A stretch of DNA of 20,792 nucleotides from a virus: positions 1 through 20,792 of the IMG/VR virus record IMGVR_UViG_3300046001_003605. The stretch is one strand, 5' to 3'. The stretch's first letter is position 1, and the number at the start of each line of letters is the position of its first letter. The notes under the pieces are model-generated. The model had not been told where the DNA came from and made no database searches. It saw only the letters and a list, made by a program, of their open reading frames with translations. A program made the translations under genes and the position numbers. Shown piece after piece: positions 1 through 11,675 of the stretch.

Positions 1-38
1 TGGCGCCGGTAGACCCGTCAACCTATCGTTACACTGTC

Positions 39-57
39 TTTATATACAGTATATAAA
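39..57. repeat. Perfect AT-rich dyad, 9-bp arms
   Basis: TTTATATAC and its exact reverse complement GTATATAAA flank a single central A. A perfect 19-bp odd-centred palindrome of this kind is typical of a dimeric repressor operator or an easily melted origin element. It is also so AT-rich that it contains -10-like hexamers, so a promoter cannot be excluded. It lies at the left end of a 306-base gene-free stretch that holds further dyads and repeats. The dyad itself is directly seen; operator or origin function is inferred. Confidence 0.6.
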
Positions 58-80
58 TTATTGATGTTATCTGTAAACAA

Positions 81-186
81 TGACCCAAATGACCCAAAGC
101 ATAATGTTCCCCAGTATTGGCGCGCGCTAGCGCTTGGGTCATCGCAGCGCGAATGCATAACCTAATCGCGACCCAAATGACCCAAG
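81..186. repeat. TGACCCAA-type iteron-like repeats
   Basis: Two tandem pairs of a 9-mer are present. TGACCCAAA TGACCCAAA lies at 81-98, and CGACCCAAA TGACCCAAG at 169-186. One inverted copy, TTGGGTCA, lies between them at 134-141. The pairs start 88 bases apart. Directly repeated 9-mers in a non-coding region upstream of a strong promoter resemble either replication iterons or a cooperative binding array for a regulator. No initiator or repressor gene in the window can be assigned to them. Confidence 0.6.
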
Positions 187-207
187 GTTATGCAATTTTT
201 GCATAAC
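154..207. promoter_or_regulatory. TGCATAAC motifs with perfect dyad at 187-207
   Basis: GTTATGCAA (187-195) and TTGCATAAC (199-207) form a perfect inverted repeat around TTT. A third half-site, TGCATAAC, lies at 154-161, and GCATAA also follows the first 9-mer pair at 99-104. The dyad ends 13 bases before the -35 box at 221, a good place for a repressor or activator acting on that promoter. The pattern is seen directly; the operator role is inferred. Confidence 0.55.
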
Positions 208-220
208 TGTAAAATAATTG

Positions 221-248
221 TTGACAGTGTAAAAGAATCGCTTACAAT
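221..248 (+). promoter_or_regulatory. Strong sigma70-like promoter for the left gene cassette
   Basis: The -35 box TTGACA (221-226) matches consensus perfectly. A 16-base spacer separates it from the -10 box TACAAT (243-248), a five-of-six match. Transcription would start near 255, about 50 bases upstream of the first gene at 307. It is the best promoter match I found in the window and probably an early phage promoter read by host RNA polymerase. The repeats and dyads just upstream suggest it is regulated. Confidence 0.75.
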
Positions 249-306
249 ACATTCACCGCGCGACAAAACGCCGGTAATTTCTAAACTACAGTAAAGGCAA
301 ACTATT

Positions 307-492
307 ATGACTAAATCAGAATCACGCGAAGTTGCATTGTGCGTTAAATACGCCGCCGCCGGCTTAGGCCCTGACTATTTAGCGCGTGCATTGTCGGCGC
401 TTTATCGCGCAGCCAGCGCAAAATCGCAGCGCGAAATTTTCGCCCTGGCTGATGACATGGGCGTTATCAATAACCCCGAATTTATTATCTAA
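307..492 (+). CDS. Small phage protein of unknown function (61 aa)
   Basis: This is the first gene of the rightward left-arm cassette, about 50 bases downstream of the predicted start of transcription. The ATG follows a TAAAGG ribosome-binding site and GCAAACTATT. The same TAAAGGCAAA leader recurs before the next gene at 542, which supports both starts. The product is soluble and probably helical, with an Ala-rich centre (around residues 15-40) of alternating charged and hydrophobic residues. No signal peptide, membrane segment or catalytic motif is visible, and I do not recognise a family. Its first place behind a strong promoter suggests an early role. Confidence 0.75.
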   Translation: MTKSESREVALCVKYAAAGLGPDYLARALSALYRAASAKSQREIFALADDMGVINNPEFII

Positions 493-500
493 ACCAAACC

Positions 501-519
501 GGCCGGCGCAAAGCCGGCC
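501..519 (+). other. GC-rich hairpin between the first two genes
   Basis: GGCCGGC (501-507) pairs with GCCGGCC (513-519) around a 5-base loop. No T-run follows, so it is not a typical rho-independent terminator. It sits just upstream of the ribosome-binding site of the gene at 542. It may stabilise or attenuate the transcript, but the left arm is rich in GGCC palindromes, so it may have no function. Confidence 0.3.
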
Positions 520-541
520 AACAACATAAAGGCAAAACAAC

Positions 542-640
542 ATGAAAAAAGCATTATTTTTAGATATCTTAGCGGCCGTCGTTATCGCGGCCGCGCTCAC
601 TGTCGGCGCCCTGGCGTATTTTGACGTATTGGTAAAATAA
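542..640 (+). CDS. Single-pass membrane microprotein (32 aa)
   Basis: The ATG is preceded by AAAGG (528-532) at a spacing of nine bases. The product begins MKKALFLD and then has an Ala/Val/Ile/Leu-rich segment over roughly residues 5-25, enough for one membrane pass. It ends in a short polar tail. Its stop is separated by one base from the ATG of the next gene at 642, so the two are probably translationally coupled. Function is unknown; early phage microproteins of this form often sit in the inner membrane. The good ribosome-binding site and tight packing make it more than a chance ORF. Confidence 0.6.
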   Translation: MKKALFLDILAAVVIAAALTVGALAYFDVLVK

Positions 641-641
641 C

Positions 642-1301
642 ATGCACGTACATCTCACACTTAAAAGCGCGAACGTCAAAACCGGCCCGATTCCAGTGTC
701 AACGACGGAGCGCGACTCATGCCCGGCGGATTGCAAAATGAAGGCCGAATGCTACGCAGCCAGCGGGCCGTTGGCGCTACACTGGGCCGCCGTATCCATG
801 AAAACGCGCGGCACAAGCTGGGAAGAGTTTTGCAGCACAATCGCGCGCTTACCCGACAATCAAATTTGGCGCCATAACCAAGCCGGCGATCTACCCCAGC
901 AAAACGGCACAATTGATCCTGTTAAATTGGGCCAACTTGTCGCGGCCAATAAAGATAAGCGCGGGTTTACTTATTCGCATCATCGCGACGCCGCCAGCAT
1001 TGCATGGATCCGGCATGCCAATAATTGGGGTTTCACTGTCAACTTATCGGCCAATGATTTAAACGATGCCGATTATTTGGCCGATCAAAACGCCGGCCCC
1101 GTCGTCGTCGTCCTACCGTCAACGCAAAACGAAAACCTAAAAACCCCAGCCGGCCGGCCGGTCGTCGTTTGCCCGGCCACCCAGCGCGACGACGTGAGCT
1201 GCGCGACGTGCCAATTATGTCAACGTCAACGGTCCACAATTGTAGGTTTCCCGGCTCACGGTTCCCGTCATCGCACAATCAACTTAAGGTTAGCAGCATG
1301 A
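642..1301 (+). CDS. Double Cys-cluster phage protein, DUF7227-like (219 aa)
   Basis: The largest product of the left arm. It matches my memory of a phage and prophage family annotated as DUF7227, whose function is unknown. Its N-terminus carries TGPIPVS (14-20) followed by a first Cys cluster, C27-x3-C31-x5-C37 with C37 in CYA. A central WRHNQAGDL block covers residues 76-84. C177 and a CxxCxxC motif (C187, C190, C193) close the protein, followed by GFPAHG (202-207). Two Cys clusters suggest one or two zinc or iron-sulfur sites. The CYA and GDL blocks recall GP88 and DUF5131 phage proteins, which some regard as radical-SAM-like, but a canonical CxxxCxxC is absent at the N-terminus. The last four bases overlap the next gene (ATGA). 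Confidence 0.75.
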   Translation: MHVHLTLKSANVKTGPIPVSTTERDSCPADCKMKAECYAASGPLALHWAAVSMKTRGTSWEEFCSTIARLPDNQIWRHNQAGDLPQQNGTIDPVKLGQLVAANKDKRGFTYSHHRDAASIAWIRHANNWGFTVNLSANDLNDADYLADQNAGPVVVVLPSTQNENLKTPAGRPVVVCPATQRDDVSCATCQLCQRQRSTIVGFPAHGSRHRTINLRLAA

Positions 1302-1480
1302 ATAAATTATTCCCCGTGATATCCGCCGGCCAGCCGGTGCCTTGTTTTAATTGCAGCCGGCCACTGGCTGGCCAGCCGGCGCCAGTAGATAACCCGCCAA
1401 GGCGCGGCCAGTGGCGCGCGTATTGCAGCGCGTGCGACATGTTTACATTTTTTGATAAAGGGGCACAAAATGACCATTAA
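1298..1480 (+). CDS. Small zinc-ribbon-like protein (60 aa)
   Basis: The ATG at 1298 overlaps the stop of the preceding gene as ATGA and is preceded by TTAAGG at about nine bases, so I prefer it to starts farther upstream in the same frame. Two CxxC knuckles are present: CFNC (residues 16-19) and CSAC (about 44-47). They are separated by a Pro- and Gly-rich stretch with PPRRGQWRAY. This layout fits a four-Cys zinc ribbon, perhaps binding DNA, RNA or a protein partner. No other domain is visible. The partner and process are unknown; its tight coupling to the double Cys-cluster gene suggests linked work. Confidence 0.7.
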   Translation: MNKLFPVISAGQPVPCFNCSRPLAGQPAPVDNPPRRGQWRAYCSACDMFTFFDKGAQNDH

Positions 1481-1700
1481 GAGCATGAGAGCAAAATACC
1501 CCGGCCACTGTAGCCGGAGCGGCACCAGGATAAACCCCGGCGACGATATTAAATTTGACACTGTAACGCGCCGCGCATGGTTAGAAGAGCCTGGCGACTC
1601 TCGCGTTGTTTTTTACGGTGACAACGGCCCCAGCACGTTCTACCGTAACCCGCGCGGCCGGTGTATTGACGCACCATGCTGTGGCTGTTGCACTATCTAG
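1470..1700 (+). CDS. Small Cys-containing phage protein (76 aa)
   Basis: The ATG at 1470 lies 6-7 bases after AAAGGGG and overlaps the preceding gene by 11 bases. A TTG at 1452 is also in frame but poorly placed. The N-terminal part, KYPGHCSRSGTRINPGDDI (residues 9-27), recalls a short zinc-binding module of phages in which two Cys precede a Gly and an Ile-Pro-Gly turn. Here the second Cys of that knuckle is replaced by Ser, leaving CSRSG. The C-terminus has a dense group, CIDAPCCGCC, that could complete a metal site. The function is not known to me. Confidence 0.65.
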   Translation: MTIKSMRAKYPGHCSRSGTRINPGDDIKFDTVTRRAWLEEPGDSRVVFYGDNGPSTFYRNPRGRCIDAPCCGCCTI

Positions 1701-1710
1701 CACGCGACCT

Positions 1711-1754
1711 TATGCGGCCCTGGTGGCCGTATAGGGGCGCGCGCTGGTGCGCGC
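1711..1754 (+). other. Two tandem hairpins in a 73-base gap
   Basis: TATGCGGCC (1711-1719) pairs with GGCCGTATA (1725-1733), with one G-T wobble. Immediately after, GCGCGC (1739-1744) pairs with GCGCGC (1749-1754). Both stems have loops containing TGGT. They occupy almost the whole space between the genes at 1700 and 1774, the widest gap inside this otherwise overlapping cassette. No T-run follows. They could be an attenuator, an RNase processing site or a protein-binding element. The structure is seen; the role is inferred. Confidence 0.35.
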
Positions 1755-1773
1755 TATAACCTAAGGGTAAAGT

Positions 1774-1920
1774 ATGAACGAAGACCTAATGAACGCGCTG
1801 CAAGCGCTTATTTTTTACGCCGACCTAATCGCGCCGGATCTACCGGACAACGCGCGCGCCGACAATTTCCAGATTGCATTAGATAAGGCGCGCATGGCCT
1901 TAGATAAGGTGGCCACATGA
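1774..1920 (+). CDS. Small helical phage protein (48 aa)
   Basis: The ATG follows TAAGGGTAAAGT, a fair ribosome-binding site. The product is acidic and probably all helical: leucine and alanine recur in NALQALIFYADLI and again in ALDKARMALDKV near the C-terminus. No Cys, membrane segment or known motif is present. Its stop codon overlaps the ATG of the next gene as ATGA, the sign of translational coupling. Function is unknown. The spacing and overlap support it as a real gene. Confidence 0.65.
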   Translation: MNEDLMNALQALIFYADLIAPDLPDNARADNFQIALDKARMALDKVAT

Positions 1921-2132
1921 CCCACTATGACAAAACCCTCATTACTTTCCACCGGGGCAATGCTTTCGCGCCAGAGGGCATAGACGCGGCGCCGTTCGCT
2001 ATTTTGACGATCAATGACCTAATTGACCGGCAATTGATAGATGCAATATGCGCCCTAGTGCGCGAACACGTCAACAAGGCGCACGCCGACCATTGCAACA
2101 TTAAATTAAATTTAGAGGACTGGGACGTATGA
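1917..2132 (+). CDS. Small phage protein of unknown function (71 aa)
   Basis: The ATG overlaps the upstream stop by four bases (ATGA), and its own stop overlaps the following ATG in the same way. It is therefore the middle of a coupled trio. The product is probably mixed alpha/beta: a hydrophobic patch, PFAILTINDLID, then a helix, LIDAICALVREHVNKAHADH, and an acidic end, LEDWDV. A His/Cys group near the end (HADHC) might bind metal, but a full site cannot be made out. I know of no family match. Confidence 0.65.
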   Translation: MTHYDKTLITFHRGNAFAPEGIDAAPFAILTINDLIDRQLIDAICALVREHVNKAHADHCNIKLNLEDWDV

Positions 2133-2443
2133 AAACCGTAACTATTGGCCGCACGGCCTACAAAATAAACGACGACCGTGACATTTTCACAGAGCATGCA
2201 AAATGCACCGGTAAGCATAGGATTGTGAAAAGTAAGGGCCCGGAGCGCCGTTATTTTCCCGATTACTTTTATTCTACGGCCGACTATGTGACGCGCTATT
2301 ACGCGCTAAACAGTGGCCGGGGCCACCAGGGCCGGGGCGCGCCGTACGGCGGAGAAAATACCCTCACGGGGTTTTATGAGAATCTAAACGAAGCGCCGAC
2401 CACCTATTACACCGAAGAGGATCTATATGAAAACGAAGGATAA
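2129..2443 (+). CDS. Tyr-rich basic-to-acidic phage protein (104 aa)
   Basis: Coupled to the gene before it by an ATGA overlap. The N-terminal half is basic (KCTGKHRIVKSKGPERR, about residues 26-42). The C-terminal half is rich in Tyr, Gly and acidic residues, with TTYYTEEDLYENEG at the end. The middle, GRGHQGRGAPYGG, looks flexible. A basic head with an acidic, aromatic tail fits a small nucleic-acid or protein-binding factor, but no defined fold is visible. It overlaps the following gene by 17 bases. Confidence 0.65.
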   Translation: MKTVTIGRTAYKINDDRDIFTEHAKCTGKHRIVKSKGPERRYFPDYFYSTADYVTRYYALNSGRGHQGRGAPYGGENTLTGFYENLNEAPTTYYTEEDLYENEG

Positions 2444-2642
2444 TCTACACCCGCTCATGCGGGAAATAATCGCGCCATGGGCGCCGCTCACGTACGCCGA
2501 CCATTATTACGTCGATCTTGGGTTTAGGTATGAGCGCGGCCAAGTGTCAGAGCATGAATACAAAATGGCCCTAGCTGAAGGACCCGAAGCGCGCCGGCTT
2601 ATGAGCCGGGGGGCCATGGAAGCAATGCGGAGCGCCTATTGA
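2427..2642 (+). CDS. Small phage protein of unknown function (71 aa)
   Basis: It starts inside the preceding gene; GAAGAGG lies about ten bases before the ATG. The product looks helical and charged: an N-terminal MREIIAPWAPLTYADHYYVD stretch, then RYERGQVSEHEYKMALAEG and a Met/Arg-rich end. The segment GQVSEHEYKMALAEG resembles a short helix-turn-helix-like hairpin of the kind seen in small coat or virion adaptors, but this is too weak to assign. It is followed by a TGATG overlap with a membrane microprotein ORF. Confidence 0.65.
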   Translation: MKTKDNLHPLMREIIAPWAPLTYADHYYVDLGFRYERGQVSEHEYKMALAEGPEARRLMSRGAMEAMRSAY

Positions 2643-2701
2643 TGATTTTTTTATTCGCCCTTATACTGGGGGCGCTGCTGGCGGTTCTTTTGGATCTGTA
2701 G
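2642..2701 (+). CDS. Possible 19-aa membrane peptide
   Basis: The ATG overlaps the preceding stop as TGATG. The peptide is almost wholly hydrophobic (FLFALILGALLAVLLDL), enough for one membrane pass. Its stop lies 16 bases before the terminator stem. No separate ribosome-binding site is apparent, so translation would depend on coupling. The clean position between the last larger gene and the terminator favours a real gene, but a chance ORF of this size cannot be excluded. Confidence 0.4.
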   Translation: MIFLFALILGALLAVLLDL

Positions 2702-2717
2702 CAGTTGCCATCCTCAC

Positions 2718-2746
2718 AAGGCCCCTAGTAATAGGGGCCTTTTTTT
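2718..2746 (+). terminator. Rho-independent terminator of the left-arm operon
   Basis: AAGGCCCCTA (2718-2727) pairs perfectly with TAGGGGCCTT (2732-2741) around the loop GTAA. A run of T extends to 2746. The 10-bp GC-rich stem plus T-run is a textbook intrinsic terminator for rightward transcription. It stands between converging operons: the left arm ends at 2701 and the leftward primase gene ends at 2771. Read leftward, only two T follow the stem, so it should work poorly for the opposite operon. Confidence 0.9.
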
Positions 2747-2770
2747 ATGTTGACGTCGTGGGCGGCGGCA

Positions 2771-5059
2771 TTACTTCACCAAGCGCACGGCCAGCGGCGC
2801 CGGTATATCCTCAACCATGCGGCGCAGTTCTGATTTTGGCCGGCCGGCCATCTCTGGCGCACAAAACATGTGTTTTTTACTTTGGAAGTCACCGGACGCG
2901 ACGCGGCCAAGATCGACCCACCCAGCCTCTTTGAGCGCATGCAGTAGGGCCGGCTGGGGAACCTTCACACCGGCCGGAGCGGCGCCAGCCACGCGGTCAC
3001 ACAATGCATGGAAGGGGGACGCCACAACACCTTTGGAAAACTCACCCAGGCGCCCGCGCATCAGTTCGACAAGGTATGACTCGGCCATGCTCATGCCATG
3101 CTCGACAAGGTTTAATTTAAACTCGGTCATCATGGGGGCTGCGCCTGGGTTAAACGCGGAGACGTCGCGGGCATGCAGCCAGGCGCCCACGGCCGCGAAC
3201 CCTCCGGCCTTGTACCAGGCCCACATGCGCGCGGCGGCGTCGGTACTCATGCGCGGCGCATGCGACCAGACGCACATCCAGCGGCGGTCCTGCGAGTCTA
3301 GGCTAATCGGCACGGGGTCATTAGAGAACGCAAGGACAAAAACCCGGTTCGCCATTTGGTAGGGGTGCAGGCCCTTACGGTTAACTGTCAGCATTTCAGG
3401 CGGCGCGGCAATGATGGGTTTTAATTTGTTGGCCAAGGCTCGGCGTTCTTTTGCGTCCGGCTCCTTCAATTCATTCAAAATCAAAATTTCAGATTCTAGG
3501 GCATAGCCAAACTGCGACGACATGGTGTCATTGTCTAGCAGGCCACGGTTTTTAAGGTGGGGGCCACACACGGCCCAAATGAACGGCGCCCACATGGTAT
3601 CTTTTCCGGACCCTTGGTCACCGCCATGCAGCACGGCGTGATTGATCTTGATGCCGGGAAATTGGATTTTGAAGGCCATCACATTCAAAATGTGATCTAG
3701 TTCGCGCTGATCGGGCACAAGGGTTTTGCAGTGGTCCATCCACAAACCAATGTCACCGGCGGCCACTGGGGGCCGCGCGTCGCGCCAGCGGTTGCCGTAC
3801 AGATCACCATCACGGGCCACAATGACCGATTCACCAGCGGCGTAAGTGATCCCCACAAGCGCCTTGGCGCCGTATTCCTGGCGGTTTTCATCAAAGCAAA
3901 TTGACGCCTCGACTTTGGGGCGCTTGCCATGGATCGAATTGCAGGGGATATGACGAAACAATGCGTTAAAGGTGCTGCGGGAAATTTCGCGGCGGTCTTG
4001 CATGTCAAAATAAGATTCGTCGTCTTGAATGTAAGCAAACCGGCCGTACCACTGCGCCTTCTCAACGCGGCCCAGTTCTTTGCGCTCGACCTCGGCAATG
4101 ATGGCCGCCGCCGCGTCAGGGAATGCTTCGGTTGGCTTGATCTTGGACAGGGCTTGATCCATGGCCAAGGTCAGTAGCTCATCACGTAAGCCAGGGGCAT
4201 GCTTTGGGCCGCCGTTCTCTGACACCCACTGCAAAAACAGCGACGATCCAAACTCGACGCAGTGACTGTGCAGGCAGCAGTAGGCGCGGTTAGCGGGCAT
4301 GTAACGGCCTTCAGGGTTGCCGTCTGTATGTTCGGCTGAATTGGGACACATCACGCCGGCCCAGCCCTCTTGATTGGGTTTAGACAAAAGCAGGCCCTGG
4401 CTACTGAGCCACGCCATCACGTCATCGGCGCCATCGTCTGACAAGCGGATGGGCTTGAACCCCACAGAGTCGGCAGGCGCGGGCACTACGCCAAGCGCAT
4501 CACAAATTTGGTCCAATGTAAAGTCACGCGCTGGGTGGAACTCCACCAACTTAGCGGCGAAGTTGTTGCGGTCTGGTTTCAAGTTGATCGAACCAGGCAA
4601 GCGGAAATTGCGCACGGCGTTAATGGCGCCCTTGTCGGTGTAACCCGCGTCGGCGATGGCCTTGATCGCGGCGCTGAAATCGGCCTTGGTAGGCTGCTCA
4701 GAGAATGCGTAACCCCACTGAAACGACCCTTCTGACGTCTCGATCTTCCATGTCGGCTCAAGTGGTGGGGTGGCCGCTTTCGTGCCTACGTCGTCCAGCA
4801 CCATCACAAGCACATACTCGCAGTTGGCGGCGCTGGCGCTGACGTGGCCGTCTTTGAAGCGGTCGATAATAAAGCTGGCCGTGTTGCCGTAGATCGCCCA
4901 GTCGTCTTTGATGCGTGCGGTAGGCAACATAGCCGGCCATGTGCATTTGATTGCGCCGTCTGCGTGGAATTGCAGTTCTTTGCCAATAGGTTTCTGACGC
5001 ACAATCAGCGCAGTTTCGCCTTCTGGCGCCAAAGAAATTAAAAAATCAAGAAAGTTCAT
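2771..5059 (-). CDS. Primase-helicase, AEP primase fused to an NrS-1/DUF5906-type helicase (762 aa)
   Basis: A replication protein that would prime and unwind phage DNA. The N-terminal third resembles an archaeo-eukaryotic-type primase: VLDDVGTK (87-94) supplies acidic catalytic residues, and NFRLPGSINLKP (151-162) is the matching strand. A possible zinc module follows, with C238, C261, C262, H264, H266 and C267. The C-terminal half is a superfamily 3-like ATPase: Walker A GGDQGSGKDT (479-488), a Walker B-like ILILNE (525-530), a sensor Asn (N580 in AFSNDP) and DRRW (591-594) as likely arginine finger. This fits the DUF5906/NrS-1 or VapE-like helicase families. It is the last gene of the leftward operon. 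Its ATG overlaps the polymerase stop (ATGA), with AAAAGGT six bases upstream. Confidence 0.85.
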   Translation of the reverse strand: MNFLDFLISLAPEGETALIVRQKPIGKELQFHADGAIKCTWPAMLPTARIKDDWAIYGNTASFIIDRFKDGHVSASAANCEYVLVMVLDDVGTKAATPPLEPTWKIETSEGSFQWGYAFSEQPTKADFSAAIKAIADAGYTDKGAINAVRNFRLPGSINLKPDRNNFAAKLVEFHPARDFTLDQICDALGVVPAPADSVGFKPIRLSDDGADDVMAWLSSQGLLLSKPNQEGWAGVMCPNSAEHTDGNPEGRYMPANRAYCCLHSHCVEFGSSLFLQWVSENGGPKHAPGLRDELLTLAMDQALSKIKPTEAFPDAAAAIIAEVERKELGRVEKAQWYGRFAYIQDDESYFDMQDRREISRSTFNALFRHIPCNSIHGKRPKVEASICFDENRQEYGAKALVGITYAAGESVIVARDGDLYGNRWRDARPPVAAGDIGLWMDHCKTLVPDQRELDHILNVMAFKIQFPGIKINHAVLHGGDQGSGKDTMWAPFIWAVCGPHLKNRGLLDNDTMSSQFGYALESEILILNELKEPDAKERRALANKLKPIIAAPPEMLTVNRKGLHPYQMANRVFVLAFSNDPVPISLDSQDRRWMCVWSHAPRMSTDAAARMWAWYKAGGFAAVGAWLHARDVSAFNPGAAPMMTEFKLNLVEHGMSMAESYLVELMRGRLGEFSKGVVASPFHALCDRVAGAAPAGVKVPQPALLHALKEAGWVDLGRVASGDFQSKKHMFCAPEMAGRPKSELRRMVEDIPAPLAVRLVK

Positions 5060-9742: not shown

Positions 9743-11049
9743 GGCCATACCAAAACACTGCTGCTGACTTTCTCTTTGAGCATGACAGGGCAATGATCTT
9801 GGCGCCAGTCGGTGCAGGCAAGACGGCGATTACTTTGACGGCCATGTGGGAGATGATCCGCGACGGCCACGTCAAGCGCTGGCTGGTGTTGGCGCCCAAA
9901 CGCGTCTGTACTGACGTATGGCCAGTCGAGCGCCCTAAGTGGGCAGACCGCATCAGCATGGCTCTGTGCGTTGGCACACCTAAACAGCGCTTAGACGCCC
10001 TTAAAAGCCCCGCCCAAATGGTTGTGACCAATTACGACAACTTGCAGTGGTTGGCCGAGCAGAAGCTGAATTTTGATGGCGTGGTGTTTGACGAACTGAC
10101 CAGATTAAAAAACCCATCAGGCACACGCTTCAAAGCATTTCTTAAAGTTGTTGACCCCATGACGACGCGATGGGGCTTGACTGGCTCGTTTACTAGCAAC
10201 GGCCTTGAGGATGTGTTTGGCCAGTGCAAGATCGTTGATCAAAGCCTGCTTGGTCGGTCTAAAGGCGCGTTCATGCAGCAATACTTTGTGCTGATCAACA
10301 AGGAGTTTGGTGAATGGGCGCCGCGTGTCGGTTCACTTCAGAAAGTCATGGACGTGATACGGCCGGCCACATTTGTCTTGGAGGCAGGTGAGTATAAGGA
10401 CAAGCTGCCGCCTTTGCATACAGTTGAACTGGCCTGCACCATGGACATGACGCCGTACAACACCATGAAGAAAGACTTTGTGCTGGAAGGCATCACTGCT
10501 GTGAACGCCGCCGTTGTCACGGGCAAGCTACAACAACTGGCGTCAGGTTTTGTTTACGATACGAAGACCACGCCGTCAGAGTCGCCTGGCAAGTTTGTTT
10601 CCACGCAACGCCCGATCTGGTACAGCATGCACAAGTTTGAAAGGCTTGAAGAATTACTCGATGAGAACCAGCATGCCAACACCATTATTGTGTACAACTA
10701 CCAAGAAGAACTTGCCGAACTCAAGCGACGCTTTAATGTCACCACCCTTGACGACACCGACGCCATTAAGCGATGGAATGATGGAAAGATCAGGCTATTG
10801 GCCGTCCATCCAAAGTCAGCCGGCCACGGGCTTAACTTACAGCACGGCGGCAGTCACATGGTGTTTCTGTCGCTGCCGTGGAGTTTGGAACTGTACGAGC
10901 AGACCATTGGTCGTTTGCACCGCAGCGGGCAACAACACCCTGTGTGGTGCTATATCCTACTGACCAGCAAAACGGTAGATGAAAAAATTTGGGCGGCCTT
11001 GCACGACAAGCGCGCCATATCTGATATTGCAATGGAGGAACTGAAATGA
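9733..11049 (+). CDS. SNF2-type superfamily 2 helicase/translocase (438 aa)
   Basis: A phage DNA translocase of the SNF2/DEAD-like group. Motif I is APVGAGKTA (24-32), motif II FDEL (119-122), motif III LTGSF (149-153), motif V SAGHGLNLQ (362-370) and motif VI QTIGRLHRSGQ (390-400). The last is characteristic of SNF2 enzymes. At 438 aa both RecA-like domains are present with little added. The start is a GTG giving MELRPYQ, the usual Q-motif-like opening of the family. It overlaps the methyltransferase end by ten bases with no good ribosome-binding site, so coupling is likely. Together with VRR-NUC upstream it probably remodels recombination or replication intermediates. Confidence 0.9.
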   Translation: MELRPYQNTAADFLFEHDRAMILAPVGAGKTAITLTAMWEMIRDGHVKRWLVLAPKRVCTDVWPVERPKWADRISMALCVGTPKQRLDALKSPAQMVVTNYDNLQWLAEQKLNFDGVVFDELTRLKNPSGTRFKAFLKVVDPMTTRWGLTGSFTSNGLEDVFGQCKIVDQSLLGRSKGAFMQQYFVLINKEFGEWAPRVGSLQKVMDVIRPATFVLEAGEYKDKLPPLHTVELACTMDMTPYNTMKKDFVLEGITAVNAAVVTGKLQQLASGFVYDTKTTPSESPGKFVSTQRPIWYSMHKFERLEELLDENQHANTIIVYNYQEELAELKRRFNVTTLDDTDAIKRWNDGKIRLLAVHPKSAGHGLNLQHGGSHMVFLSLPWSLELYEQTIGRLHRSGQQHPVWCYILLTSKTVDEKIWAALHDKRAISDIAMEELK

Positions 11050-11675
11050 GTTATATCGTGGCGTCACTGCCGCCCATGAAATGCTTTGTGAAGCGCGAGT
11101 TTTTGTACAACGATCACAAGGGGCACGGCGAGTTGGAGCCGGCCATCTGGGTGAGCCTTAAAGCCTTGCGTGGCCAAGTGTTCCGAATTGAATCGCTATT
11201 GCCGGCCTACGGCGCTTTGTATGACAAGCTGCCGATACACGCGTATGTGTGGCACAAAGACGCTGGCAACTTGCCTATTGACACGCTTCAGTTGTGGGAC
11301 TGCATGGGCTACAGGTTTACCATTCTTGAAAAGATTGGCTTGCGTAACCTGGGCGTAAAGTTTTTGGGTAAAGACCGTGAGTGGCACTTTGGGCGCTACT
11401 TGTTCACTGTAGATTTTTGTGCTGACGAATTAAGTTTAGACACGGGTTTTACCGAGCAGGCCGAGGAACACAAGTCGTTCAATTGGATTGCGCTAGACAA
11501 TGGCCAGTTTGCTTGCCAGCCAAACAACCGATGCCTGTGGTACGACCAGAGCCTAATCCCTGCTGAGACAAAGTTTCCTGACTTCCAAGCGGCGCAGCGC
11601 CTGTGGACAGTGGATGGCACACGCAAGTGGTCAGCAGGCGATGATTGGTTTTACGATGTTAAGGAAAGAAAATGA
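11046..11675 (+). CDS. Conserved phage protein of unknown function (209 aa)
   Basis: The ATG overlaps the helicase stop as ATGA. The protein is soluble and rich in aromatic residues (many W, Y and F), with no signal or membrane segment. Several blocks look well folded: VWHKDAGNLPIDTLQLWDCMGYRF in the first half (about 68-91), KDREWHFGRYLFTVDFCADE in the middle, and KWSAGDDWFYDVKERK at the end. I cannot tie these to a catalytic family. Being directly coupled to SNF2 and VRR-NUC suggests a replication, recombination or early regulatory role, but the context is the only guide. Confidence 0.8.
   Translation: MSYIVASLPPMKCFVKREFLYNDHKGHGELEPAIWVSLKALRGQVFRIESLLPAYGALYDKLPIHAYVWHKDAGNLPIDTLQLWDCMGYRFTILEKIGLRNLGVKFLGKDREWHFGRYLFTVDFCADELSLDTGFTEQAEEHKSFNWIALDNGQFACQPNNRCLWYDQSLIPAETKFPDFQAAQRLWTVDGTRKWSAGDDWFYDVKERK

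Follow-up and report, generated by a model that had tools for sequence, protein, structure and literature searches.

The subject of this analysis is a gene-free region at the start of a 20,792-nucleotide viral DNA (IMG/VR record IMGVR_UViG_3300046001_003605; the whole stretch is here called the window, and element positions refer to it), together with the primase-helicase encoded further along. Judging from sequence comparisons, it is very likely that this region is the right part of a phage replication origin built of short repeats, or iterons, which the phage's own primase-helicase binds through a predicted C-terminal winged helix. An earlier note on the same DNA had proposed either an origin with iterons or a multi-operator switch, and had found no gene for a cognate protein in the window. 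The origin is now strongly favored over the switch, and the cognate protein is very probably encoded in the window after all, by the DUF5906 primase-helicase gene (2771-5059, minus strand), since the C-terminal domain of its product covaries with the repeats. One small loop of this protein most likely reads the short repeats; since loop and repeat have been exchanged jointly in many related phages, the amino acids of the one predict the letters of the other.

The repeat is the 9-mer TGACCCAAA, arranged in tandem pairs that are inverted about an AT-rich segment. On the plus strand lie the right inner pair TGACCCAAATGACCCAAA (TGACCCAAA TGACCCAAA) at 81-98 and a second pair, CGACCCAAATGACCCAAG (CGACCCAAA TGACCCAAG), at 169-186; a single inverted copy, TTGGGTCAT, is at 134-142 on the minus strand. 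All of the elements listed in the earlier note -- these three as well as the palindrome, dyad and promoter described below -- are present where it placed them. The window has two tandem 17-mers (up to 3 mismatches) where 0.06 are expected, and five occurrences of TGACCCAA where 0.72 are expected. The 306 bases reported as gene-free are indeed so, but they are incomplete: they form the right end of a gap, 717 bp long in relative L002, between terS and the first early open reading frame (ORF), and the contig edge cuts it. The missing left part was taken from L002 and L003, which are 99.7% identical over window positions 1-320 and extend about 411 bases beyond the edge to the start of terS. The entire gap in L002 holds 13 exact TGACCCAA words. 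The 9-mers are joined head-to-tail, two or more at a time. To the left of the AT-rich segment the clusters mostly face left, one inverted pair module lying among them, and to its right they face right, with one single inverted copy. The mirror image of the 81-98 pair lies at L002 9301-9318, left of the window edge. Between these innermost inverted pairs the AT-rich segment is 99 bp long in L002, with its first 18-19 bp left of the contig edge and its right part at window 1-80; this segment is the proposed unwinding region.

This architecture recurs in related phages. Tandem 17-mers (1 mismatch allowed) number 5-8 per record, 52 in total, in 8 whole related records, and in 8 of 8 they are confined to one stretch of a few hundred bp; the reversed control pattern gave 0. 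An exact 24-mer from the array matched 40 viral stretches, 39 of which also carry genes of this phage family; the other, L089, was set aside, with only two exact units in apparently unrelated DNA. Among 58 relatives with a readable region, 22 are of type A (TGACCCAAA), 12 of type B (TTGTCCACA), 20 of type C (TGAC[C/T/A]CACA, as labelled by script; L080 and L081 were later reassigned to "other") and 4 of other types. Arrays in the 22 type-A loci have 8-14 exact repeats. A words and B/C words are nearly mutually exclusive, and the layout is constant across repeat types. The repeats which the earlier note had suggested seeking in related contigs are found at the same place, but often with a different sequence. 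In the 45 A/B-type loci where the inner distance could be measured (only these types were used for it), the innermost inverted pairs lie 89, 91, 98-100, 108-110 or 120 bp apart, values that group at intervals of about one helical turn (p=5e-5 in a distinct-value phase test, which is indicative because the loci are related). The segment between the inner pairs is AT-richer than the rest of the region in 45 of 45 loci, with a mean of 62.5% vs 52.8%.

Which protein follows the repeats was examined in two ways. Over 44 of the 58 typed loci -- after removal of eight near-duplicates, of L068 and of the "other" types, and with TerS read from its ATG start -- the primase-helicase has 15 (A/B), 109 (A/C) and 114 (B/C) disjoint columns, the portal has 1 for A/C and 2 for B/C, and polymerase, TerL and TerS have 0 in each comparison. 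A wider set came from 149 loci having both parts, of which 108 were left after near-duplicate removal. In an unbiased scan of 107 of these 108, correlation with repeat similarity peaks at residues 709-726 of the primase (r 0.665, or 0.62 as a partial correlation controlling for residues 1-300), with 721, 724 and 726 as the leading single columns. The wing partial was reached by 0 of 500 label permutations, and the partial correlations of the other proteins are -0.15 (polymerase), -0.07 (TerS) and 0.14 (TerL). These figures bear on the idea that repeats beside terS form a pac/cos-type packaging site for the small terminase. The array does directly adjoin terS in relatives, and a small A/C gap in TerS (+0.012, 7 of 1000 permutations) is the sole hint of a link, but TerS lacks the covariation although all of the repeat copies change, and we consider a packaging site very unlikely.

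The protein at the peak contains the DUF5906 core of D5/NrS-1-type superfamily 3 (SF3) helicases (PF19263, E 1.3e-12, 48.8 bits vs a cut-off of 27.6), and residues 451-597 match the helicase core of the NrS-1 primase (6k9c, 6k9e, 6lrb; E about 8e-7); profile match and covariation together make it the proposed iteron-binding initiator. The AlphaFold2 model of residues 599-762, made with 47 sequences (predicted local distance difference test, pLDDT, 81; predicted template modelling score, pTM, 0.62), has helices followed by two strands with a loop at 721-728, a winged-helix topology in which the wing is the covarying stretch. The predicted domain spans residues 683-750 (2810-3013, minus strand), and its wing hairpin, residues 715-733 (VDLGRVASGDFQSKKHMFC; 2861-2917, minus strand), is the proposed iteron-reading element, since its residues 721, 723, 724 and 726 vary in step with the iteron.

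At least seven natural repeat-wing combinations occur over the 108 non-redundant loci of this one phage group: VAS[G/S/A] with TGACCCA[A/T], IASGE with TGACCTAA, LKSR[E/D]xD with TTGTCCAC, LKSRAxT with TGAC[C/T]CAC, LTSRE with TTGACTAC, LMSR with TGACTAAC and VHSRE with TGGCACAC. Written in the C-rich orientation the unit is T[G/T]NNNNAX; its reverse complement also fits the pattern, and the caller for the orientation postdates the first sight of the rule. The 40 called loci with Arg723 all have C at unit base 8, and the 39 with any other residue at 723 all have A or T at that base. Because the rule was noticed on the same loci before being counted on them, a tree and a prediction serve as the independent tests. 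On a tree of residues 1-300, available for 74 of the 79 rows (five lacked these residues), both traits change 15 times, and the supported independent pairs agree in 8 of 8 cases (p=0.0078). For the prediction, contigs were chosen by their repeat DNA alone and the wing was then read. The TTGTCCAC contigs have a KSR wing in 10 of 10 visible cases (12 contigs, of which at least L215 and L217 share a contig with earlier loci), and the TGACTAAC contigs an MSR wing in 7 of 7 (10 contigs; this pairing was previously known from two loci only, and five of the seven look closely related), which makes 17 of 17 for the two together. The TGACCCAA contigs, 38 newly fetched of 40 and several of them from records already in the earlier set, have a VAS or LAS wing in 20 of 20. 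Two contigs from bacterial assemblies (Rhodoferax metagenome-assembled genomes), read by eye, agree as well: they pair LKSRR with TTGTCCAC (L196) and LASRE with TAGCC[C/T]AC (L194).

It is quite possible, and is tentatively proposed here, that these pairings amount to a simple, evolvable recognition code by which a hexameric replication helicase would identify its origin with the tip of its wing. In T[G/T]NNNNAX, residue 723 would set base 8 (Arg for C; Gly, Ala or Ser for A or T), 721 would track base 6 (Lys-C, Met-A, Thr-T), and 724 and 726 would track the 5' half. All iteron copies would have been re-coded with the wing many times in one phage group, with satellites, superinfecting relatives or nucleases aimed at the origin as possible selective forces, and a quarter of the loci would carry a host LexA-like site in the unwinding region.

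Several points weigh against an origin bound by the primase-helicase wing. The winged-helix fold is a prediction only: the domain model has no significant Foldseek match in the PDB (none below E 0.001), and the VIA structure comparison ranks winged-helix domains at the top, but with weak Z scores that do not exceed 6.3, and AlphaFold2 models the full-length protein poorly (pLDDT 56). Covariation scoring reached roughly half of the genes in the genome. The base-8 rule leaves 29 of the 108 loci uncalled, 20 with fewer than three tandem units and nine ties, including L125. This locus carries both A and B repeats: a complete A array adjoins the AT-rich segment, the repeats towards terS are B-type, and the wing is A-type. 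It looks like a recombination junction left by a swap. L067, L074 and L178 are not explained, the unit spacing of type C varies between 9 and 10 bp, and no array on which to try the rule could be placed in the nearest named phage, MW202483. What the sequences show is the repeats, their layout, phasing and AT-richness, and the specific covariation of the wing; from these we infer that the protein physically binds the repeats, that the DNA melts and hexamers load, and that the region acts as an origin. Cumulative GC skew, which the earlier note had suggested computing, gives no support: it has its extremum away from the origin in all 4 near-full contigs (minima/maxima at 768/34112, 25791/2120, 31298/1465 and 15653/31933 vs origins at about 9250, 7450, 11830 and 36590), but the skew is weak there and the test is regarded as uninformative. 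Finally, the small ORFs between origin and primase also switch with repeat type, so that a linked block was exchanged, and in the main clade A/B linkage extends to synonymous sites, rising towards the C-terminus of the primase.

The synonymous linkage means that part of the main-clade covariation is a swapped DNA block, and it is on account of this linkage within the main set that the wider locus sets were used. For polymerase and TerL the corresponding synonymous gap is close to 0, and for TerS it is 0.009. Carried to its limit, this would be hitchhiking alone: origin and primase 3' end exchanged as one block, with no contact between repeat and wing, and the A/B gradient at synonymous sites is what such exchange would leave. 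We find this highly improbable as the whole explanation, given the 15 parallel changes on the residues 1-300 tree with agreement of every supported independent pair, a covariation peak that falls on individual wing residues, and repeat-picked contigs that still have the expected residues when their C-terminal segment is down to about 59% identical.

A multi-operator switch, in which the array is bound by a repressor or activator, perhaps a small early protein, gains from the conserved promoter beside the array and from two small ORFs, o1452 and o2129, that all 18 type-A loci of the main set possess and all of its type-B and type-C loci lack. Beyond that set the association breaks down: among the 39 called non-Arg loci, nine lack o1452 and nine lack o2129, yet their repeats are of the TGACC type. 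L068 has homologs of four of the A-linked small ORFs (o307, o642, o1452 and o2129) but B repeats; its primase is B-like only at residues 690-762 (0.83 vs 0.69 to A and 0.63 to C) and is elsewhere about equidistant from the types or closer to C. ORF o2427 correlates with the repeats at r 0.64, but with the wing accounted for it contributes little more (partial 0.08, vs 0.52 for the wing given o2427). The AT-rich core and the helical phasing also fit an origin better, and a switch appears unlikely.

Under the favored reading, that of an iteron origin bound by its own primase-helicase, the C-terminal winged-helix domain of the protein would attach it to the tandem 9-bp iterons, and wing residues 721-726 would recognize the bases. 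Sitting on the inverted clusters to either side of the AT-rich segment at a fixed helical phase, the protein would open that segment and load as a helicase. Priming would come next, and then replication by the phage's family-A polymerase. Binding, opening and loading are proposed by analogy with the Rep protein of Staphylococcus pathogenicity islands (SaPIs), Cch2 of the staphylococcal cassette chromosome mec (SCCmec) and RepA of the Vibrio cholerae phage-inducible chromosomal island-like element (PLE), which are compared below.

Other signals accompany the iterons. The perfect 9+1+9 AT palindrome at 39-57 (TTTATATAC-A-GTATATAAA), to which the earlier note drew attention, is real, but it is not conserved even in near relatives; what recurs instead is an overlapping CTGT-N8-ACAG site at 34-49, inside the AT-rich segment. 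This pattern, which matches the LexA (SOS) box consensus, occurs without mismatch in 26 of 108 loci, all repeat types being represented (shuffles: mean 1.2, maximum 5); in 25 of those 26 it occupies nearly the same position within the AT-rich segment. Some copies of the LexA-box-like site read CTGTATATATATACAG, the site is also found in the origins of L147, L150 and L175, and in the window a leftward promoter-like site at 77 to 48 overlaps it. On the other side of the iterons is the sigma-70-type promoter of the rightward early operon, TTGACA-16-TACAAT (221-248, plus strand), a pattern found in 54 of 108 loci vs 0.7 in shuffles. Just upstream of it is the dyad GTTATGCAA-TTT-TTGCATAAC (187-207); as TATGCA-N5-TGCATA this is found in 33 of 108 loci vs 0.22 in shuffles, and loci without it carry another element at its position.

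In several of the loci L070-L079 the polymerase is 75% identical and TerL only about 32%, with the same primase type and 9-bp repeats (TTGACTAC); the replication module therefore moves between packaging modules. The origin region of L086 has additional repeats around CTGTACA/TACAG and ATACAGTAC. In MW202483.1 (L204), an annotated homing endonuclease gene at 10712-11158 lies directly before terS, at the position of the origin in the window's relatives. Phage DSL-LC05 (OR003940.1, L205; 3700-4300) has a related structural module, but its primase/polymerase annotation differs, and so do the C-rich repeats, some of them including GTGGGTCA, that occupy the corresponding position upstream of terS; no array could be placed there for testing the rule. 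A nucleotide search of named phages with window 1-3000 gave nothing useful, and a repeated ATGACCTAA pattern matched no viral contig.

The choice of origin by initiator helicases, and how that choice can change without being lethal, has usually been studied on one or two alleles. With short oligonucleotides and natural domains, the origin specificity of D5/SF3 helicases becomes directly testable, and the system lets one ask what drives origin switching; the wing-repeat rule also offers a means of matching the primase-helicases of metagenomic phages with their origins. The literature searches made for this analysis found nothing on the origin of this phage group or on a wing-iteron code.

There are clear relationships to known systems. 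The alpha protein of phage P4 is a primase-helicase that is reported to bind its own iteron origin; the difference is that here the wing-repeat covariation extends over many phages, of another type. The NrS-1 primase-polymerase (6k9c, 6k9e, 6lrb) is matched over the helicase core of its C-terminal portion, not over the C-terminal wing domain. In SaPI Rep, according to PMC7581432 (citing Ubeda et al. 2007), the C-terminal domain of the initiator helicase recognizes an iteron origin, apparently as two hexamers. The likeness would lie in an initiator helicase with a C-terminal recognition domain, here predicted, and in an origin of multiple short iterons. The differences are that the present system belongs to a podovirus-like phage of 36-39 kb with its own family-A DNA polymerase, that one phage group holds at least seven repeat-wing combinations, and that the SaPI origin is directly downstream of rep. 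Here the primase-helicase gene ends at 2771 and the origin, at window 306 and below, lies about 2.5 kb beyond it next to terS, with small ORFs between, so that the SaPI type of adjacency is not seen. For SCCmec Cch2, a D5-type helicase, PMC7581432 describes binding of the isolated C-terminal domain to direct repeats in the putative origin. The iterons of Cch2 are three in number and 5 nt long, and its primase is a separate protein; the present system has a 9-mer in 8-14 copies and, probably, a primase fused to the helicase. In PLE RepA, PMC8263062 reports that DNA-binding domain and origin covary, have been swapped more than once and are needed as cognate pairs; it is a RepA_N initiator rather than a helicase, with semi-palindromic iterons of about 30 bp and two allele groups, vs many here. 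The mechanism is already known from such systems; this member of it, its many natural specificities and its simple recognition rule appear to be new.
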